Shown one piece after another: positions 10,483-17,742 of a DNA stretch of 64,000 nt; positions within the stretch are counted from its first letter, which is position 1; every line of letters starts with the position of its first letter. Made by a program: the position numbers and the translations under genes. This DNA is from Phycisphaerales bacterium (GTDB lineage Bacteria; Planctomycetota; Phycisphaerae; UBA1845), in NCBI GenBank assembly GCA_003597935.1, contig QZJT01000120.1, positions 1 through 64,000 of the forward strand, in the 5' to 3' direction. The notes beneath the pieces were generated by a model. The model ran no database searches and was not told the origin of the DNA. It worked only from the letters and a program-made list of their open reading frames with translations.

Positions 10483-10525
10483 ACGCGGCTCAAGACCTCC
10501 ATCAGCGGTCGGGAGGACCAGTGAA

Positions 10526-13500
10526 GTGGCGAGAAGGACCGGATCGCGGCCGGACGACCTTCTGACGGCACTGGCGTTTGACGAGGCGCCGACGTTTCTT
10601 CGAGCCGGGGACCGTCGCTTTTCGACTGCGCCGGCGTTCGGACACGTCTTTCGCCGCGCCGCGAAACCGGCCGAGGGCGACCGGCCGGGGCCCGGGCTGG
10701 TCGGCGTCTACACGCTCCGCTCCGCAACTGCCACCGCAAGCACTCCGCCGATCCCAGTCCTGTACGTGTGCAAATGCGATTCCGTCGAGACAGCCGACAA
10801 GGTTCATCGCCTCGTCTGGAATCAGGACGTCGTACCGTTCGTGCTGGTGGCGACTCCGGAAGACTACCGCCTCTATTCCGGGTTTGATTACAACGTGCGG
10901 TCGGCAAAGCGGTCCGCGAACCTGCTACGCGCGTTCAACAGCGCCGCCGAGGTTGCGGAAGCCGGCTTTCATGCCGACGCCATCGACGACGGACGGGTCT
11001 GGCGCGAGTGGGGCGCCCGCGTGCGCCCCGAGGGACGCGTCGATTGGACGCTGCTGGACAACCTGAAGACGCTGGCCGCCCGGTTGCAGGATAACGGGCT
11101 GCCGATCGAGCTTGCCCACGCCCTGATTGGGAAGTACGTCTTCCTCCACTATCTGCGCGACCGGGACATACTGTCGCAGCGCAAGCTGGACGCCTGGACC
11201 ATCAAGCGGGAGTCCGTCTTCGGCCGCGATGCCTCGCTCTCCGGCTTGAGGGCCGTCGTCAAGCGGCTGGACGACTGGCTGAACGGCAGCGTATTCCCGC
11301 TCCGGCTGAGCGGGAAGGGCGCGCCGGACACCGAGCATGTCCGCATGGTGGCCTTGACTTTCGCTGGCGATGAGCCGAAATCGGGCGGCAGTTGGCAACT
11401 CCACCTGGACTTCCAGGCGTACGACTTCTCCTACATCCCCATTGAGACACTCTCGGTAGTCTACGAGCAGTTCCTGCACGCACCGTCAAGCGACAAACGC
11501 TCGCGCGGCCGGGAGGCTGGCGCTTACTACACGCCCATCCCGGTCGTCAACTTCATGCTCGCGGAGCTGGAGGATCGGCATCCGCTGACGGACAAGACGA
11601 GGATTCTCGACCCGGCCTGCGGCTCCGGTGCTTTTCTCGTTCAGTGCTATCGCCGGCTGATCGAGAAGGCGCTGACTATGCGAAAGGGCGAACTCCGTCC
11701 CATTGAATTGCGATCCCTGCTCACGCGGAGCATCTTCGGCATCGACCGCGACCCGGAAGCGTGCAGCGTCACGGAGTTGTCGCTGATCCTGACGCTTCTG
11801 GACTATTGCGACCCGCCGGATCTTGAAAATGGCAGCCGTTTCAAGCTCCCCACGCTGCGCAGCTCAAACGTGCTGGCCGAGAACTTCTTCTCCACCGATC
11901 CGGATCCATTTGCCAATCTGGGCGGCCGCGGCTTCGATTGGGTTGTGGGCAACCCGCCTTGGAAGAGGCTCAAGTCCGACAGGCTCAGCGATGACGACAG
12001 GCCCGCCTGGGACTGGATGCAGCGGTCGAAGAAACAGGACATGCCCGTCGGCGGCCACCAGGTGGCTCAGGCCTTTGCATGGGAAGTATCGCGGTATCTG
12101 GCGGAGGGCGGACACGTCGCGCTGCTCATGCCTGCCATGATGTTGTTTGAGGATCCGTCGCAGGACTTCCGTTCGTCGTTCTTTCGTCGCAACCAGGTCC
12201 AATCGGTCGCGAACTTCGCCAACCTGGCGGAAGTGCTATTCGCCGGGCGATCGCGCGTTCCCGCGGCAGCCATTTTCTACACACCACGTGCCGAGGAGGC
12301 CGGCGAACCATCCTTCGACGAGTACATTGCGGTCTGTTCGCCGCTCGTCGCCAACCAGGAACCCACGCGGCCGGTGCAGGCGGGCACACGCACCGAGAGC
12401 TGGAGCCTCGTGGTTAACGGTGCGGAGGTGCGCGGGATCCCGGCACGGTCTGTCTTGAAGGGGAACGGTCTGCCCTGGAAGCTCGCTACGTGGGGCAGCC
12501 ATCTCGACGCTCGCCTGCTGGAGCGAGTCAGCCAGCGCTTTTTGACATTGCGAGATGCGATGCGGTTGGACCTGCTTGTCTATGCAGAGGGTTCTCAGCT
12601 TCGTGCGGCTGCCGGTGGTGAAGTCGAACGGTGCGAGGAGGTCGCAGGCAAGCAGACCATCAATGTGAAAGCACTAGAAGGCCTTCGCCACCTCTTCGCA
12701 TTTCCCATTCAGGCTTTGCTTTCAAACAAGAAGAACTACCTCAGACTCCGCGGCGGAAAGCTAGGGCTCGACGTCTGCCGTCCACCGCACGTCATCGTCA
12801 GTGCGGCCCGCAATTTCGCCATTTACTCCGAAGAGTATCTGATTGTGCCGCCACGTCAGATCGGGGTGATCAGTCCGTCGGGCGACAAGCGATTGCTCAA
12901 GGCCTTTGCTGTCTACATGAACTCAGATTTCGCCTACTATCATCAATTCCTCCGCTCCACAGAGTTGGGAGTGAAACGGGATAGGGCAACACTGTCGGCG
13001 TTCAAGACGATCCCCCTCCCTATGATCTCGTTCGATGCGCAGTCCCTGGACCGGTGGGCCGGGTTGCATGACAGGTTGGTGGCCGCGTCGAAGGCAGCGC
13101 TCGCGATGCCGAATCGGCGCGGGCCCGATTTGTTTACGCAACAATCGGACGACACCGGAAGTGAGTCGATTGCCGCACTGCTCGTTCAAGCAAACGAGGC
13201 CGTCAGCGACGCGCTCGGACTGAAACCCCGGGAGCGGGCGATCGTCAACGACCTGGTCAATGTGCGATTGGAACTCAATGATGGGAAACTGGGCGCAAAC
13301 GCCGTCGGGCCACCCACGGCGGATCACCTGCGGGCGTACGCCGATCGCCTCCAAACCGAACTCGATACGTTTGTCGGCGACGCACTGCCGAAGCGGCACA
13401 ACGTCGAAGTCTTGAATGACCGGAATACCGGCATGATTCATGTCGAACTTGTTCCGGCAGGCAAGGCGCGCCCGGTCGCCGTGCTCGCCGCGGACTCCAA

Positions 13501-13714
13501 GACCGCCGTACAACTGGAGCGAACACGGGCACGCCTGCGCCAACAGCGCGCCCAGTGGGTCTATTTCGACCGCAACCTGCAGATCTTCGAGGGAACCAGT
13601 ACGTACACCTTCAAGCCCATGCAGCGATTCCACTGGACCGAGAGCCAGGCCATGTGCGATGCGGCCGAGATTATCGCCAAGACGCTGAGCAGTTCCGGAG
13701 GTCGTTCGCGTTGA
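10526..13714 (+). CDS. N6-adenine DNA methyltransferase (type IIG/Eco57I-like) of a restriction-modification unit
   Basis: A 1062-residue protein starting at GTG 10526, preceded by GGGAGG at the proper distance; a longer frame overlaps the previous gene and is rejected. The N-terminal 330 residues are helical and include GKYVFLHYLRDRDIL. The sequence EAGAYYTPIPVVNFM then leads into motif I ILDPACGSGAF (about residues 360-370) and motif IV NPPW (476-479), giving a gamma-type amino-methyltransferase order. The C-terminal half (about 560-1060) resembles a target-recognition and specificity region, with FAVYMNSDFAYYHQF and LSAFKTIPLP. No nuclease motif is obvious at the N-terminus, unlike true type IIG enzymes. 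The stop overlaps the next gene by four bases, so the two products are probably made together. Confidence 0.85.
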   Translation: MARRTGSRPDDLLTALAFDEAPTFLRAGDRRFSTAPAFGHVFRRAAKPAEGDRPGPGLVGVYTLRSATATASTPPIPVLYVCKCDSVETADKVHRLVWNQDVVPFVLVATPEDYRLYSGFDYNVRSAKRSANLLRAFNSAAEVAEAGFHADAIDDGRVWREWGARVRPEGRVDWTLLDNLKTLAARLQDNGLPIELAHALIGKYVFLHYLRDRDILSQRKLDAWTIKRESVFGRDASLSGLRAVVKRLDDWLNGSVFPLRLSGKGAPDTEHVRMVALTFAGDEPKSGGSWQLHLDFQAYDFSYIPIETLSVVYEQFLHAPSSDKRSRGREAGAYYTPIPVVNFMLAELEDRHPLTDKTRILDPACGSGAFLVQCYRRLIEKALTMRKGELRPIELRSLLTRSIFGIDRDPEACSVTELSLILTLLDYCDPPDLENGSRFKLPTLRSSNVLAENFFSTDPDPFANLGGRGFDWVVGNPPWKRLKSDRLSDDDRPAWDWMQRSKKQDMPVGGHQVAQAFAWEVSRYLAEGGHVALLMPAMMLFEDPSQDFRSSFFRRNQVQSVANFANLAEVLFAGRSRVPAAAIFYTPRAEEAGEPSFDEYIAVCSPLVANQEPTRPVQAGTRTESWSLVVNGAEVRGIPARSVLKGNGLPWKLATWGSHLDARLLERVSQRFLTLRDAMRLDLLVYAEGSQLRAAAGGEVERCEEVAGKQTINVKALEGLRHLFAFPIQALLSNKKNYLRLRGGKLGLDVCRPPHVIVSAARNFAIYSEEYLIVPPRQIGVISPSGDKRLLKAFAVYMNSDFAYYHQFLRSTELGVKRDRATLSAFKTIPLPMISFDAQSLDRWAGLHDRLVAASKAALAMPNRRGPDLFTQQSDDTGSESIAALLVQANEAVSDALGLKPRERAIVNDLVNVRLELNDGKLGANAVGPPTADHLRAYADRLQTELDTFVGDALPKRHNVEVLNDRNTGMIHVELVPAGKARPVAVLAADSKTAVQLERTRARLRQQRAQWVYFDRNLQIFEGTSTYTFKPMQRFHWTESQAMCDAAEIIAKTLSSSGGRSR

Positions 13715-14379
13715 TCGAGGACGCACAGGCTGGAGACGGGGGCGCCTCCGCGAACCTCGCTGATTACCGGTGGGTGTTCCTCCAGCGCGTCCACGGCGTC
13801 CTTCAGGCCGGCTACCTGCGGCTCAACGCCTCCGACTATGCCGCCGCCGATGAACCCACGATCAGCGGAGTTCTCGCAGGGTGCATGCGTGCGTTCCTCC
13901 GCGAGGACGTGCCCGACTGGGCCGACCACTTCAGCATCCACGATGATCCGCCGGTGAGCGACGGCGTTCGCACCGGCAAGCGTCGAAAACGCATCGACAT
14001 TGGTGTCGAGTCAGCGGTTCCGCGACCGGGACAGCGGTTCTCATTTGAGGCGAAGCGCCTCGGTGCGGAACATCCCATCGGCATCTACCTCGGCCCGGAG
14101 GGTCTCGGTTGCTTTCTTGCGGGCGACTACGCCCGCAACGACGACTCGGCCGGCATGATCGGCTACGTCCAGTCACACACGCCGTTTCACTGGGCGTCGC
14201 AACTGGAGCATCGGCTCCGTCTTGGCCCTGCCGCGTATCACACGTCCACCGAGCGGTGCTGGAAGAAGCACCTCTTCGTGGATGGCCCGCAGCACTGTTT
14301 CGTGTCCCACCATGAACGGGCCATCCTCGCGCGACCCATCACGATCTATCACAGCCTGCTGTCGTTCGTCGCCTCGTAG
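13711..14379 (+). CDS. Candidate PD-(D/E)XK restriction endonuclease partner of the methyltransferase
   Basis: A 222-residue protein. The start is TTG 13711, which overlaps the methyltransferase stop (TTGA) and has GGAGG 9 bases upstream. No family was recognised for certain, but the middle carries KRRKRIDIGVE followed about 12 residues later by FSFEAKRL, which gives Asp96, Glu113 and Lys115: the D...ExK pattern of PD-(D/E)XK nucleases. The sequence then continues with HPIGIYLGPEGLGCFLAGDYAR and a C-terminal region containing HHERAILARPI. The tight overlap with a modification methylase and the motif together suggest the cleavage subunit of a two-gene restriction system. A specificity or accessory protein remains possible. 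Confidence 0.6.
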   Translation: MIEDAQAGDGGASANLADYRWVFLQRVHGVLQAGYLRLNASDYAAADEPTISGVLAGCMRAFLREDVPDWADHFSIHDDPPVSDGVRTGKRRKRIDIGVESAVPRPGQRFSFEAKRLGAEHPIGIYLGPEGLGCFLAGDYARNDDSAGMIGYVQSHTPFHWASQLEHRLRLGPAAYHTSTERCWKKHLFVDGPQHCFVSHHERAILARPITIYHSLLSFVAS

Positions 14380-15825: not shown

Positions 15826-16594
15826 GCTTGCGTTCTCCGTGAAGGTGGAGGGCGGCCGGGACGGCCAGAAACCGCTCCGTGCCGGTTCGGGGTGCCGCCT
15901 CGGCCACGACGCTGAATCGAGCGGGAACGACATCGTCCCCCCGCCGCAGACGTTGCGTCACCCGCCCTTGTCGCCGGCAGCGCCACTGTGGCCGCCAGAG
16001 GGGCAAACTACCCTCCCCCCCATGTTGGGGCAACCCGCCCACCGTGGCGGTGGCGGTAAGCGTGCGCGTCACGATCGGCGGCTCGCCCTGGGACCGTCTC
16101 GCTCCCGCCTGGCGGCGCGGGAGAATGCCTTCCCGACCAAGACACGCTTTACGCGAGACTCCGCGCGGGCTTGAAACCCGCGCGGATTCTATGGCCGAGG
16201 GGATCGTCCGGGGTGGAGCGCTATCGATCTGGAACCTCCGCGCGGACAGAAGCCACGCCTCCCGAGCGGCCGCCGGATAGTTCGGCCGACTGGAACCTCC
16301 GCGCGGGCTGAGGCCACGCAACTCGCCCAGAAGGGCCGCTCATGCCGTCACCGGCTCCGGCTTCGAATCGTGGTCGGTGGACGGAGTTGCTCCGGGCCGG
16401 ACCGGCACTAAGATGACAATGACGGCCCTCGATGACGGCCAGGTCCCATGCAGTGGGTCTCGGCGGCAACGGGTCAGGCTGGAGACAGAGCAGCCCACCG
16501 GCGCGATTCAGGTGCCGTGGATCGCCTGGTCGTCATCCAGGGCCGTCAGCACAGCCCCTCCTTTGACCGGGGCTGAGCGTCTACTTCCCTACGA
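15826..16594. repeat. Repeat-rich intergenic region
   Basis: About 770 bases without a credible gene. It holds one copy of the GGGACCGTCTCGCTCC...GGCGG element (about 16084-16125), a palindrome CGCGCGGGCTTGAAACCCGCGCG (about 16153-16180), and two diverged copies of the CTCCGCGCGGGCTGAGGCC family at about 16232 and 16290. A further GC-rich segment lies around 15945-15990. Several long open frames here are by-products of the GC content. Confidence 0.75.
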
Positions 16595-17461
16595 TCAATC
16601 CGGGCCTGATTGCGTCTCGATCATGTGTTGCAAGGCTCGCCAGCCGGCCATCTGGTGCTCGGTCAACGTGGCATCGCGGCCGGTGGCCAGGCGATGCTCG
16701 ATGGCGCGAAGCCGCCGCCGCGTTTCGCGCGGCAGGTTCGGCCGTCGGTTGACCACCAGCCCGGTCACGTACTGTCGCTGATGCGCGCGGCGGACGTGCA
16801 GCTTCTTCCGCCGGTGCAGCCGATAGCCGTAATCTTCCGCGATCAGGCCGGCCAGCCGCATCAGTTCGCGGCAGCGCGGCGCGTCATCCTCGGCGAACGA
16901 AAACGTCAGGTCGTCGGCGTAGCGCGTGTAAACCGCGCCGGCGCGAGCGGCCGCGCCAGCCAGGCGGGCGTCGAGCCGGAAGTTGACCAGGTTGCTCAGT
17001 CGCGGGCTGGTGGGCGCGCCGGCGGGTAATGCGTCCTCGAACGTACACACCTTCGTCAACAGGCGGGCGGCCGGGCGGTTCCAGCCGATCCGGCGGAAGT
17101 AGCGGCGAACGCGCTCAGCCGTGGTGGATGCAAAGAACTCCTCCACGTCCATCCGTACGACTATCCGCCGCCCAGCGTGTACACGCGCGTTGGTGACGAT
17201 GGAGCGGCCGCGCTCGAACCCGATGGCCGCCGGGTGGACCGTCAGGCCGGACAGCACGCGGCGCAGGATGCGCTTCTGCATGATTTTCAGCGCCCGGTCC
17301 GGCGACTGAATGCGCCGCTGACCGCCGCCGCGCTTCGGGATCGTGAAGGTGGTGTAGCTCTGCTCGAAGGCAAGCAGTTCATGAACGTCCGTGCCCAGCC
17401 AGGCGGCCAGTTCCTCAGCACTTCGTCCCTTGCCGTGAATCAGCCTGGTCCACAGTCCCAT
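16595..17461 (-). CDS. Retron-type reverse transcriptase
   Basis: A 288-residue RT, in the normal size range for retron enzymes, starting at ATG 17461 with GAGG seven bases before it. RT motifs are in order: FTIPKRGGGQRRIQSPD (residues 39-55), IGFERGRSI, the retron-specific NAxxH motif as N91-A-R-V-H95, catalytic Asp105 in VRMDVEEFF, LPAGAPTSPRLSN (145-157), YTRYADD (178-184) with the catalytic pair, and the VTG motif at 232-234 followed by LVVN. These features separate retron RTs from group II intron and CRISPR-associated RTs. No effector domain is fused. The nearest genes are not known retron effectors; a structured non-coding leader lies upstream. It would make msDNA if the leader is a real msr-msd. 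Confidence 0.88.
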   Translation of the reverse strand: MGLWTRLIHGKGRSAEELAAWLGTDVHELLAFEQSYTTFTIPKRGGGQRRIQSPDRALKIMQKRILRRVLSGLTVHPAAIGFERGRSIVTNARVHAGRRIVVRMDVEEFFASTTAERVRRYFRRIGWNRPAARLLTKVCTFEDALPAGAPTSPRLSNLVNFRLDARLAGAAARAGAVYTRYADDLTFSFAEDDAPRCRELMRLAGLIAEDYGYRLHRRKKLHVRRAHQRQYVTGLVVNRRPNLPRETRRRLRAIEHRLATGRDATLTEHQMAGWRALQHMIETQSGPD

Positions 17462-17515
17462 GCTCGTGCCTCGATTCCGCGACTGTGCGCTGCGCCGATG
17501 CCACAATGCGGCGAT

Positions 17516-17742
17516 GCGGCGACGCAGCCTCGAAGGACGGTTCACGAGGTTATTGGGCCAGCGCTACGGACCCGGAAAAAAGACCGGGCGCGGCCGCCCG
17601 CGCCCGGCCCGTCCTGCATCGGTTGCGAACCGATAGCCGAATTCCAAGGCCACGTCGCGTGACCCGGCCGACGAAACATCGGCCTTGCACTTTGCGTTCA
17701 AGTGCCGCCAGGACGGTGTCGGCATGGTGCAGTCGTCGCCGC
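17516..17742 (-). ncRNA. Candidate retron msr-msd RNA upstream of the RT
   Basis: The RT leader has no coding potential but strong structure when read on the minus strand: hairpin GGCCGA/TCGGCC with a TGTTTCG loop (17666-17684), hairpin ATCGGTT/AACCGAT with a 3-base loop (17618-17634), and stem CCGGGCGC/GCGCCCGG (17584-17607) followed by a T run. A 9-base inverted repeat (17734-17742 with 17516-17524) encloses all of them and could be the a1/a2 pair of a retron. Position immediately 5' of the RT, size (about 227 bases) and stem order fit a retron RNA. The bounding repeat is short and GC-rich, so chance is not excluded. Confidence 0.3.
17576..17607 (-). terminator. Intrinsic terminator-like hairpin in the RT leader
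   Basis: Read leftward, an 8-bp perfect GC stem (CCGGGCGC/GCGCCCGG, 8-base loop) is followed at once by TCTTTTTT. This is the strongest terminator-like structure seen in the window. No protein gene lies upstream on this strand, so it would end a short non-coding transcript, or partly attenuate transcription into the RT. Confidence 0.6.

Follow-up and report, generated by a model that had tools for sequence, protein, structure and literature searches.

Can the work of a Type IIG restriction enzyme be shared between two chains, one that reads and methylates the DNA and another that cuts it? This question is raised by a gene pair in a 64,000-nucleotide stretch of contig QZJT01000120.1 from a Phycisphaerales bacterium, hereafter referred to as the window. 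The window comes from a draft genome of 4.3 Mb, which is 77% complete and whose recognisably named relatives belong to the Planctomycetota. An earlier note on this DNA had described a 1062-residue, Eco57I-like adenine methyltransferase (MTase) overlapping by four bases a 222-residue protein with an Asp-x16-Glu-Ala-Lys motif, and had placed the nuclease on this second, downstream chain. Here, we propose that the two genes probably encode a single two-chain, ATPase-free restriction-modification enzyme, in which the MTase would read the site and a separate nuclease subunit would cut. The proposal draws on an obligate pairing of the two genes, invariant residues and a predicted fold in the small protein, an N-terminus of the MTase that has no conserved nuclease site, and the exchange of a segment among close MTases. 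That the unit belongs to restriction-modification is well supported; we infer that the small protein cuts DNA, that it forms a complex with the MTase, and that the MTase determines the specificity.

Results

The two genes form an obligate unit

The small gene was sought by six-frame search in the phylum of the window, and the search was then extended to 85,000 genome species and to viral contigs. The first searches gave 35 loci and, wherever the context suffices, the small gene is located directly 3' of an orthologous MTase of ~1040 amino acids. Wider profile searches added distant small proteins (E-values of 1e-7 to 1e-22), all of them adjoining a related MTase. The small gene lies beside such an MTase at 25 of 26 further loci, and the remaining locus ends at a contig edge. 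In total, the small gene is directly 3' of a related MTase at more than 100 loci, which represent at least six phyla; there is one consistent exception to the pairing, a broken Desulfobacula copy (L043/L123) that has an in-frame stop. In most of the 81 tabulated pairs the genes overlap or are at most a few bases apart, the commonest spacings being -4, -1 and 0; larger spacings mostly reflect start-codon choice or frameshifts in the MTase, such as those of L115 and L148.

A non-circular test of the pairing was made by searching plasmids with the MTase only, which gave 12 distinct records. All 12 have a gene of 214-239 amino acids directly downstream of the MTase, labelled 'hypothetical' or, in one record, Fis regulator. 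Furthermore, each of these downstream genes matches the small-protein profile (E-values of 1e-20 to 1e-35) and keeps all the invariant residues described below. The MTase and the small gene are thus an obligate two-gene unit. The loci have no conserved third gene: no ATPase, S gene or partner of the bacteriophage exclusion (BREX) system is conserved beside the pair. No fusion of MTase and nuclease on one chain was seen either; a 540-amino-acid frame at locus L102 was considered and turned out to be an overlapping open frame.

The small protein is most likely a PD-(D/E)XK nuclease

The earlier note did not recognise the family of the small protein, and the databases bear this out. Neither the protein itself nor a profile built from 31-42 of its relatives has an above-noise match in Pfam, NCBIfam, PADLOC or the PDB sequences. 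A Pfam match to zf-C3HC4_5 (E-value 0.039) came from a single member and is below the cut-off, and PADLOC PDC matches of single members (E-values of 0.014-0.05) were rejected as chance.

Residues E48, D96, E113, K115, Y126, M149 and H201 are invariant in 93 of 93 small-protein sequences, down to ~15-20% identity, and H214 has one variant only in the same set. These include D96, E113 and K115, which compose the motif that had been named. The motif was rejected as stand-alone evidence, since 34% of shuffled versions of the protein contain a looser form, D-x(8-25)-(D/E)-x-K, and 1.6% contain D-x16-E-x-K exactly. Alone it is near chance, and it is credible because it is invariant in the relatives.

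The AlphaFold model of the small protein has a predicted local distance difference test score (pLDDT) of 90.2 and a predicted template modelling score (pTM) of 0.87. It comprises, in this order, a helix (48-64), three strands (74-78, 97-101 and 109-118), a further helix and a strand (146-153). A PD-(D/E)XK core is expected to have this alpha-beta-beta-beta-alpha-beta order, in which the first helix bears the N-terminal Glu, the second strand the Asp and the third strand the E-x-K; D96 and E113/K115 are on neighbouring strands. A Foldseek comparison with the PDB has BstEII, PaqCI, FokI, MunI, McrC and BamHI within the first ten matches, and matches in a viral library include Cas4, UL24 and restriction-endonuclease models. 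Judged from conservation and from this model, the small protein is most likely a PD-(D/E)XK nuclease. The earlier note had named two findings that would speak against its proposal; neither of them, another fold or relatives in which the putative catalytic residues are not conserved, was encountered. One member of the family, on plasmid p2 of Paracoccus sp. TOH (L168:6874-7584), bears the label of a Fis family transcriptional regulator, which seems to be an annotation error.

The methyltransferase resembles Type IIG enzymes and has no recognisable N-terminal nuclease site

The large protein is the Eco57I-like adenine MTase that had been described, with Pfam matches to N6_Mtase (2.6e-19), Eco57I (3.8e-12) and also MmeI_Mtase. 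Its best PADLOC matches are Type IIG profiles (REase_MTase_IIG, 1.4e-46). Motif I (DPACGSGAF, from residue 362) and motif IV (NPPW, 476-479) are both intact, and the whole chain has fold matches to CamA, BpuSI, BrxX/PglX (E-value ~1e-15), M.BseCI and DrdV.

The N-terminus of the MTase model forms a small mixed alpha/beta domain, which consists of strands 58-64 and 76-83, helix 87-100 and strands 105-109 and 114-118. It is located where Type IIG enzymes keep their nuclease. Among 66 full-length relatives, no Asp, Glu or Lys of residues 1-170 is conserved at 80% or above; the residues that are conserved in this region are P77, Y80, W98, N99, P111, Y117 and G156. The domain may be a non-catalytic relic or a docking domain.

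The presumed recognition segment is exchanged and the small protein does not follow

Several close pairs of MTases have a sharply divergent stretch, the presumed target-recognition segment, at residues ~655-750, right behind the catalytic domain. The MTases of loci L145 and L149, for example, are 77% identical overall and 20% identical over 60 amino acids near residue 668. The small proteins of the same two loci are 80% identical, and every 60-residue window of them is at least 63% identical. Trees were built from nine relatives, separately for the MTase backbone, the recognition segment and the small protein. L145 and L149 are joined in the backbone tree (96/100) and in the small-protein tree (99/95). 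In the recognition-segment tree, L149 groups with L143, L136 and L147 (91/99), and L145 is outside that group. Moreover, over 107 within-clade pairs, the identity of the small protein is unrelated to that of the recognition segment after correction for clade and for the remainder of the MTase (partial r 0.05, permutation p 0.28).

Exchange of the segment is accompanied by no corresponding change in the small protein, which is most simply explained by a nuclease that takes its site from the MTase. The MTase would then set the site for both activities. A comparable situation is known for Type IIG enzymes, in which the specificities of cutting and methylation change together, one module serving both (PMC4081073).

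Some points weigh against the two-chain enzyme as a whole. When the pairs are pooled and clade is ignored, the small protein and the recognition segment do correlate (partial r 0.49), a correlation that we attribute to clade effects and that disappears once clade is handled. The correlation result depends on the handling of clade, while the contrast between the trees does not. The presumed DNA-reading role of segment 655-750 is assigned from its position after the catalytic domain and from the exchange pattern. The Foldseek matches of the small protein are, taken singly, non-significant (best E-value 0.026, TM-score below 0.4).

Discussion

In the mechanism that we propose, the large protein would bind a specific DNA sequence by its recognition segment and methylate adenine at the bound site, which would protect the host. 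The small PD-(D/E)XK protein, with E48, D96, E113 and K115 as its putative residues for metal-dependent hydrolysis, would not by itself be specific for a fixed sequence. It would dock on the MTase and cut the DNA at or near an unmethylated site. In more general terms, we lean towards a widespread, unrecognised class of restriction enzyme, R + (gammaM~S), in which a motor-less nuclease chain would be guided by whichever segment the MTase carries.

It is unlikely that the pair is an ordinary two-gene Type II system, in which the small protein is an autonomous endonuclease reading the sequence of its MTase by itself. Separate genes for a nuclease and an MTase that act independently are the classical Type II arrangement (PMC3936762), 222 amino acids is a typical size, and folds of the BamHI, MunI and BstEII type are among the best matches. 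The unit also resembles such systems in its two adjacent, co-oriented genes, its small PD-(D/E)XK endonuclease and, sometimes, an upstream control gene. However, in classical systems each protein reads the DNA itself, and an autonomous nuclease would need a new specificity at the very moment when the recognition segment of the MTase is exchanged; here the small protein is unchanged by that exchange.

The structural closeness of the MTase to BrxX/PglX (given above) raises the possibility that the small protein is a nuclease of another kind, a BREX-like or abortive effector, for instance non-specific or modification-dependent, which is held in check by the MTase. BrxX/PglX acts without a cognate site-specific nuclease. 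Repressors with S24 protease domains, of the LexA or CI type, are found upstream at some loci and suggest tight control of expression. We consider this explanation improbable: the unit has a dedicated nuclease gene and lacks partners of the BrxA/B/C/L/Z type, matches to the NCBIfam BREX models are far below the cut-off, the loci have no other BREX genes and no conserved ATPase or further partner, and a strict two-gene unit matches the need of restriction-modification. That the small protein is a regulator or a DNA-binding accessory of an orphan MTase, as its weak fold matches and the Fis-family label of one plasmid copy could suggest, is hardly credible, given the E...D...E-x-K invariant on the expected structural elements in all 93 sequences and no helix-turn-helix match in Pfam.

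Returning to the two-chain enzyme, its closest likeness is spread over different types. Like Type IIG enzymes of the Eco57I, BpuSI and DrdV/MmeI kind, it has a gamma-class MTase of ~1000 amino acids with a recognition segment of its own and no ATPase motor, Type IIG profiles match its MTase best, its fold matches include BpuSI and DrdV, and one specificity module may be shared by methylation and cutting. Type IIG enzymes have their nuclease domain fixed at the N-terminus of the MTase chain (PMC3874165, PMC4081073), whereas the N-terminal domain of the unit has no conserved catalytic residues and its predicted nuclease is a separate downstream protein. The unit is not Type IIG, since a nuclease site was looked for in residues 1-170 of the MTase and none is recognisable, the nuclease motif being confined to the separate protein. 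Like Type I, it has nuclease and MTase on different chains and an exchangeable recognition domain that would set the specificity for the nuclease as well. It is not Type I, because it has no motor and no separate S subunit; the 222-residue protein lacks a helicase domain, and the surrounding genes include no conserved helicase. By analogy, the unit may work like a Type IIG enzyme with its nuclease in trans, or like a motor-less Type I enzyme. Formally it would be counted as Type II, and the way in which the two proteins have evolved speaks against a nuclease that recognises its site autonomously.

The earlier note had regarded the separation of the nuclease as unusual. This holds for an MTase of Type IIG character, but a separate nuclease gene is ordinary for Type II, and the novelty consists in a Type IIG-like MTase combined with a nuclease that does not follow the recognition domain. 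No two-chain Type IIG enzyme was found in the literature, in a search that mostly did not cover subscription journals and did not include REBASE, and the reviews cited above describe no such organisation (PMC3874165, PMC4081073). The novelty is provisional.

If the proposal is true, one of the common large bacterial genes labelled 'N-6 DNA methylase' supplies one half of a restriction enzyme, and the other half, the nuclease, has been passed over under the label of a hypothetical protein. Tools of the PADLOC type would probably file the unit as Type IIG or as an orphan MTase, since there is no model for the nuclease family. In its architecture, the unit would also stand between Type I and Type IIG. 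One published model of how restriction enzymes evolved derives Type IIG from the fusion of a nuclease domain to an MTase-specificity chain, and fusions constructed on this plan showed no restriction activity (PMC6158711). Natural, motor-less and separate nuclease and M~S chains would represent the unfused form for this step, which would make it directly testable. Finally, if the nuclease can work in trans with any recognition segment, specificity could be changed in one protein only.

Genomic features and distribution

The features of the gene pair are given in Table 1. The four-base overlap is as had been described: it reads TTGA, with the TTG start of the small gene at 13711 and the TGA stop of the MTase at 13712-13714. 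There is a good ribosome-binding site (RBS) ahead of both genes. The pair in the window has no upstream control gene, and a gene of the thioredoxin family is 43 bp away.

Table 1 Features of the gene pair in the window.
Feature	Position	Strand	Description	Basis
MTase RBS	10511..10516	+	GGGAGG, 9 nt before GTG start	sequence
Gamma-class adenine-N6 DNA MTase with target-recognition segment	10526..13714	+	1062 aa, GTG start	
MTase N-terminal domain	10526..11035	+	residues 1-170, without recognisable nuclease site	
MTase catalytic domain	11426..12325	+	residues ~301-600	
Presumed target-recognition segment of MTase	12488..12775	+	residues ~655-750, exchanged among close relatives	
Small-gene RBS	13697..13701	+	GGAGG	sequence
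Small PD-(D/E)XK nuclease (predicted)	13711..14379	+	222 aa, TTG start	
E48 codon of small protein	13852..13854	+	helix 48-64	
D96 codon of small protein	13996..13998	+	start of strand 97-101	
E113-A114-K115 codons of small protein	14047..14055	+	strand 109-118	

The unit is carried by ~1-13% of the sampled species per clade, frequencies that are rough because the profiles behind them differ. It is present in 50 of 390 species (~13%) in the class of a Desulfobacteraceae genome, in 15 of 250 (6%) in a Bryobacterales order, and in 2 of 274 in the class of Lamprocystis. The phylum of the window (12 of 334 species) and the Alphaproteobacteria, as the class of Azospirillum (8 of 289), are at 3-4%. 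Cultured carriers of the pair include Bradyrhizobium elkanii (plasmid pBel61) and Mameliella alba (plasmid pKUB112). Neither protein was found in 50,697 phage genomes; one IMG/VR contig (L055) is among the loci.

Control genes of unrelated families are common directly upstream of the pair. A CI-type helix-turn-helix with an S24 protease is found at L029:237-902, L034:2026-2679 and L038:6050-6703, a LexA-type DNA-binding domain with S24 at L031:5988-6635 and L045:4966-5616, and MerR-like or XRE genes at plasmid loci. The S24-peptidase repressors suggest that, in some hosts, DNA damage turns on the unit.

Other neighbours differ from locus to locus. At L016:75-18765 (G086) the pair has a ResIII helicase on one side and an N6_N4 Mod-type MTase on the other, beside an SF1 helicase and a PLD-like protein; this unusual composite defence island was seen once, and its members were rejected as conserved partners. 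The same applies to an AAA ATPase and an HNH-like small protein, Septu-like by eye, directly upstream of the copy on Rhizobium plasmid NZ_CP076855.1 (L014:1950-4093). On the conjugative IncP plasmid pRSB223 (L161, JX469828.1), a class 1 integron carrying the cassettes aadA1 and blaOXA is immediately upstream of the unit, whose MTase is split over two frames.

In the window, a stand-alone reverse transcriptase of 316 amino acids (16595-17545, minus strand; RVT_1, 3.3e-16; YADD motif) is encoded 2.2 kb downstream of the unit. It is possibly a retron-type defence reverse transcriptase; no retron RNA family of Rfam was matched. Adjoining its gene, there is a bacterial small signal recognition particle RNA (16437-16534, plus strand; RF00169, 48.9 bits).

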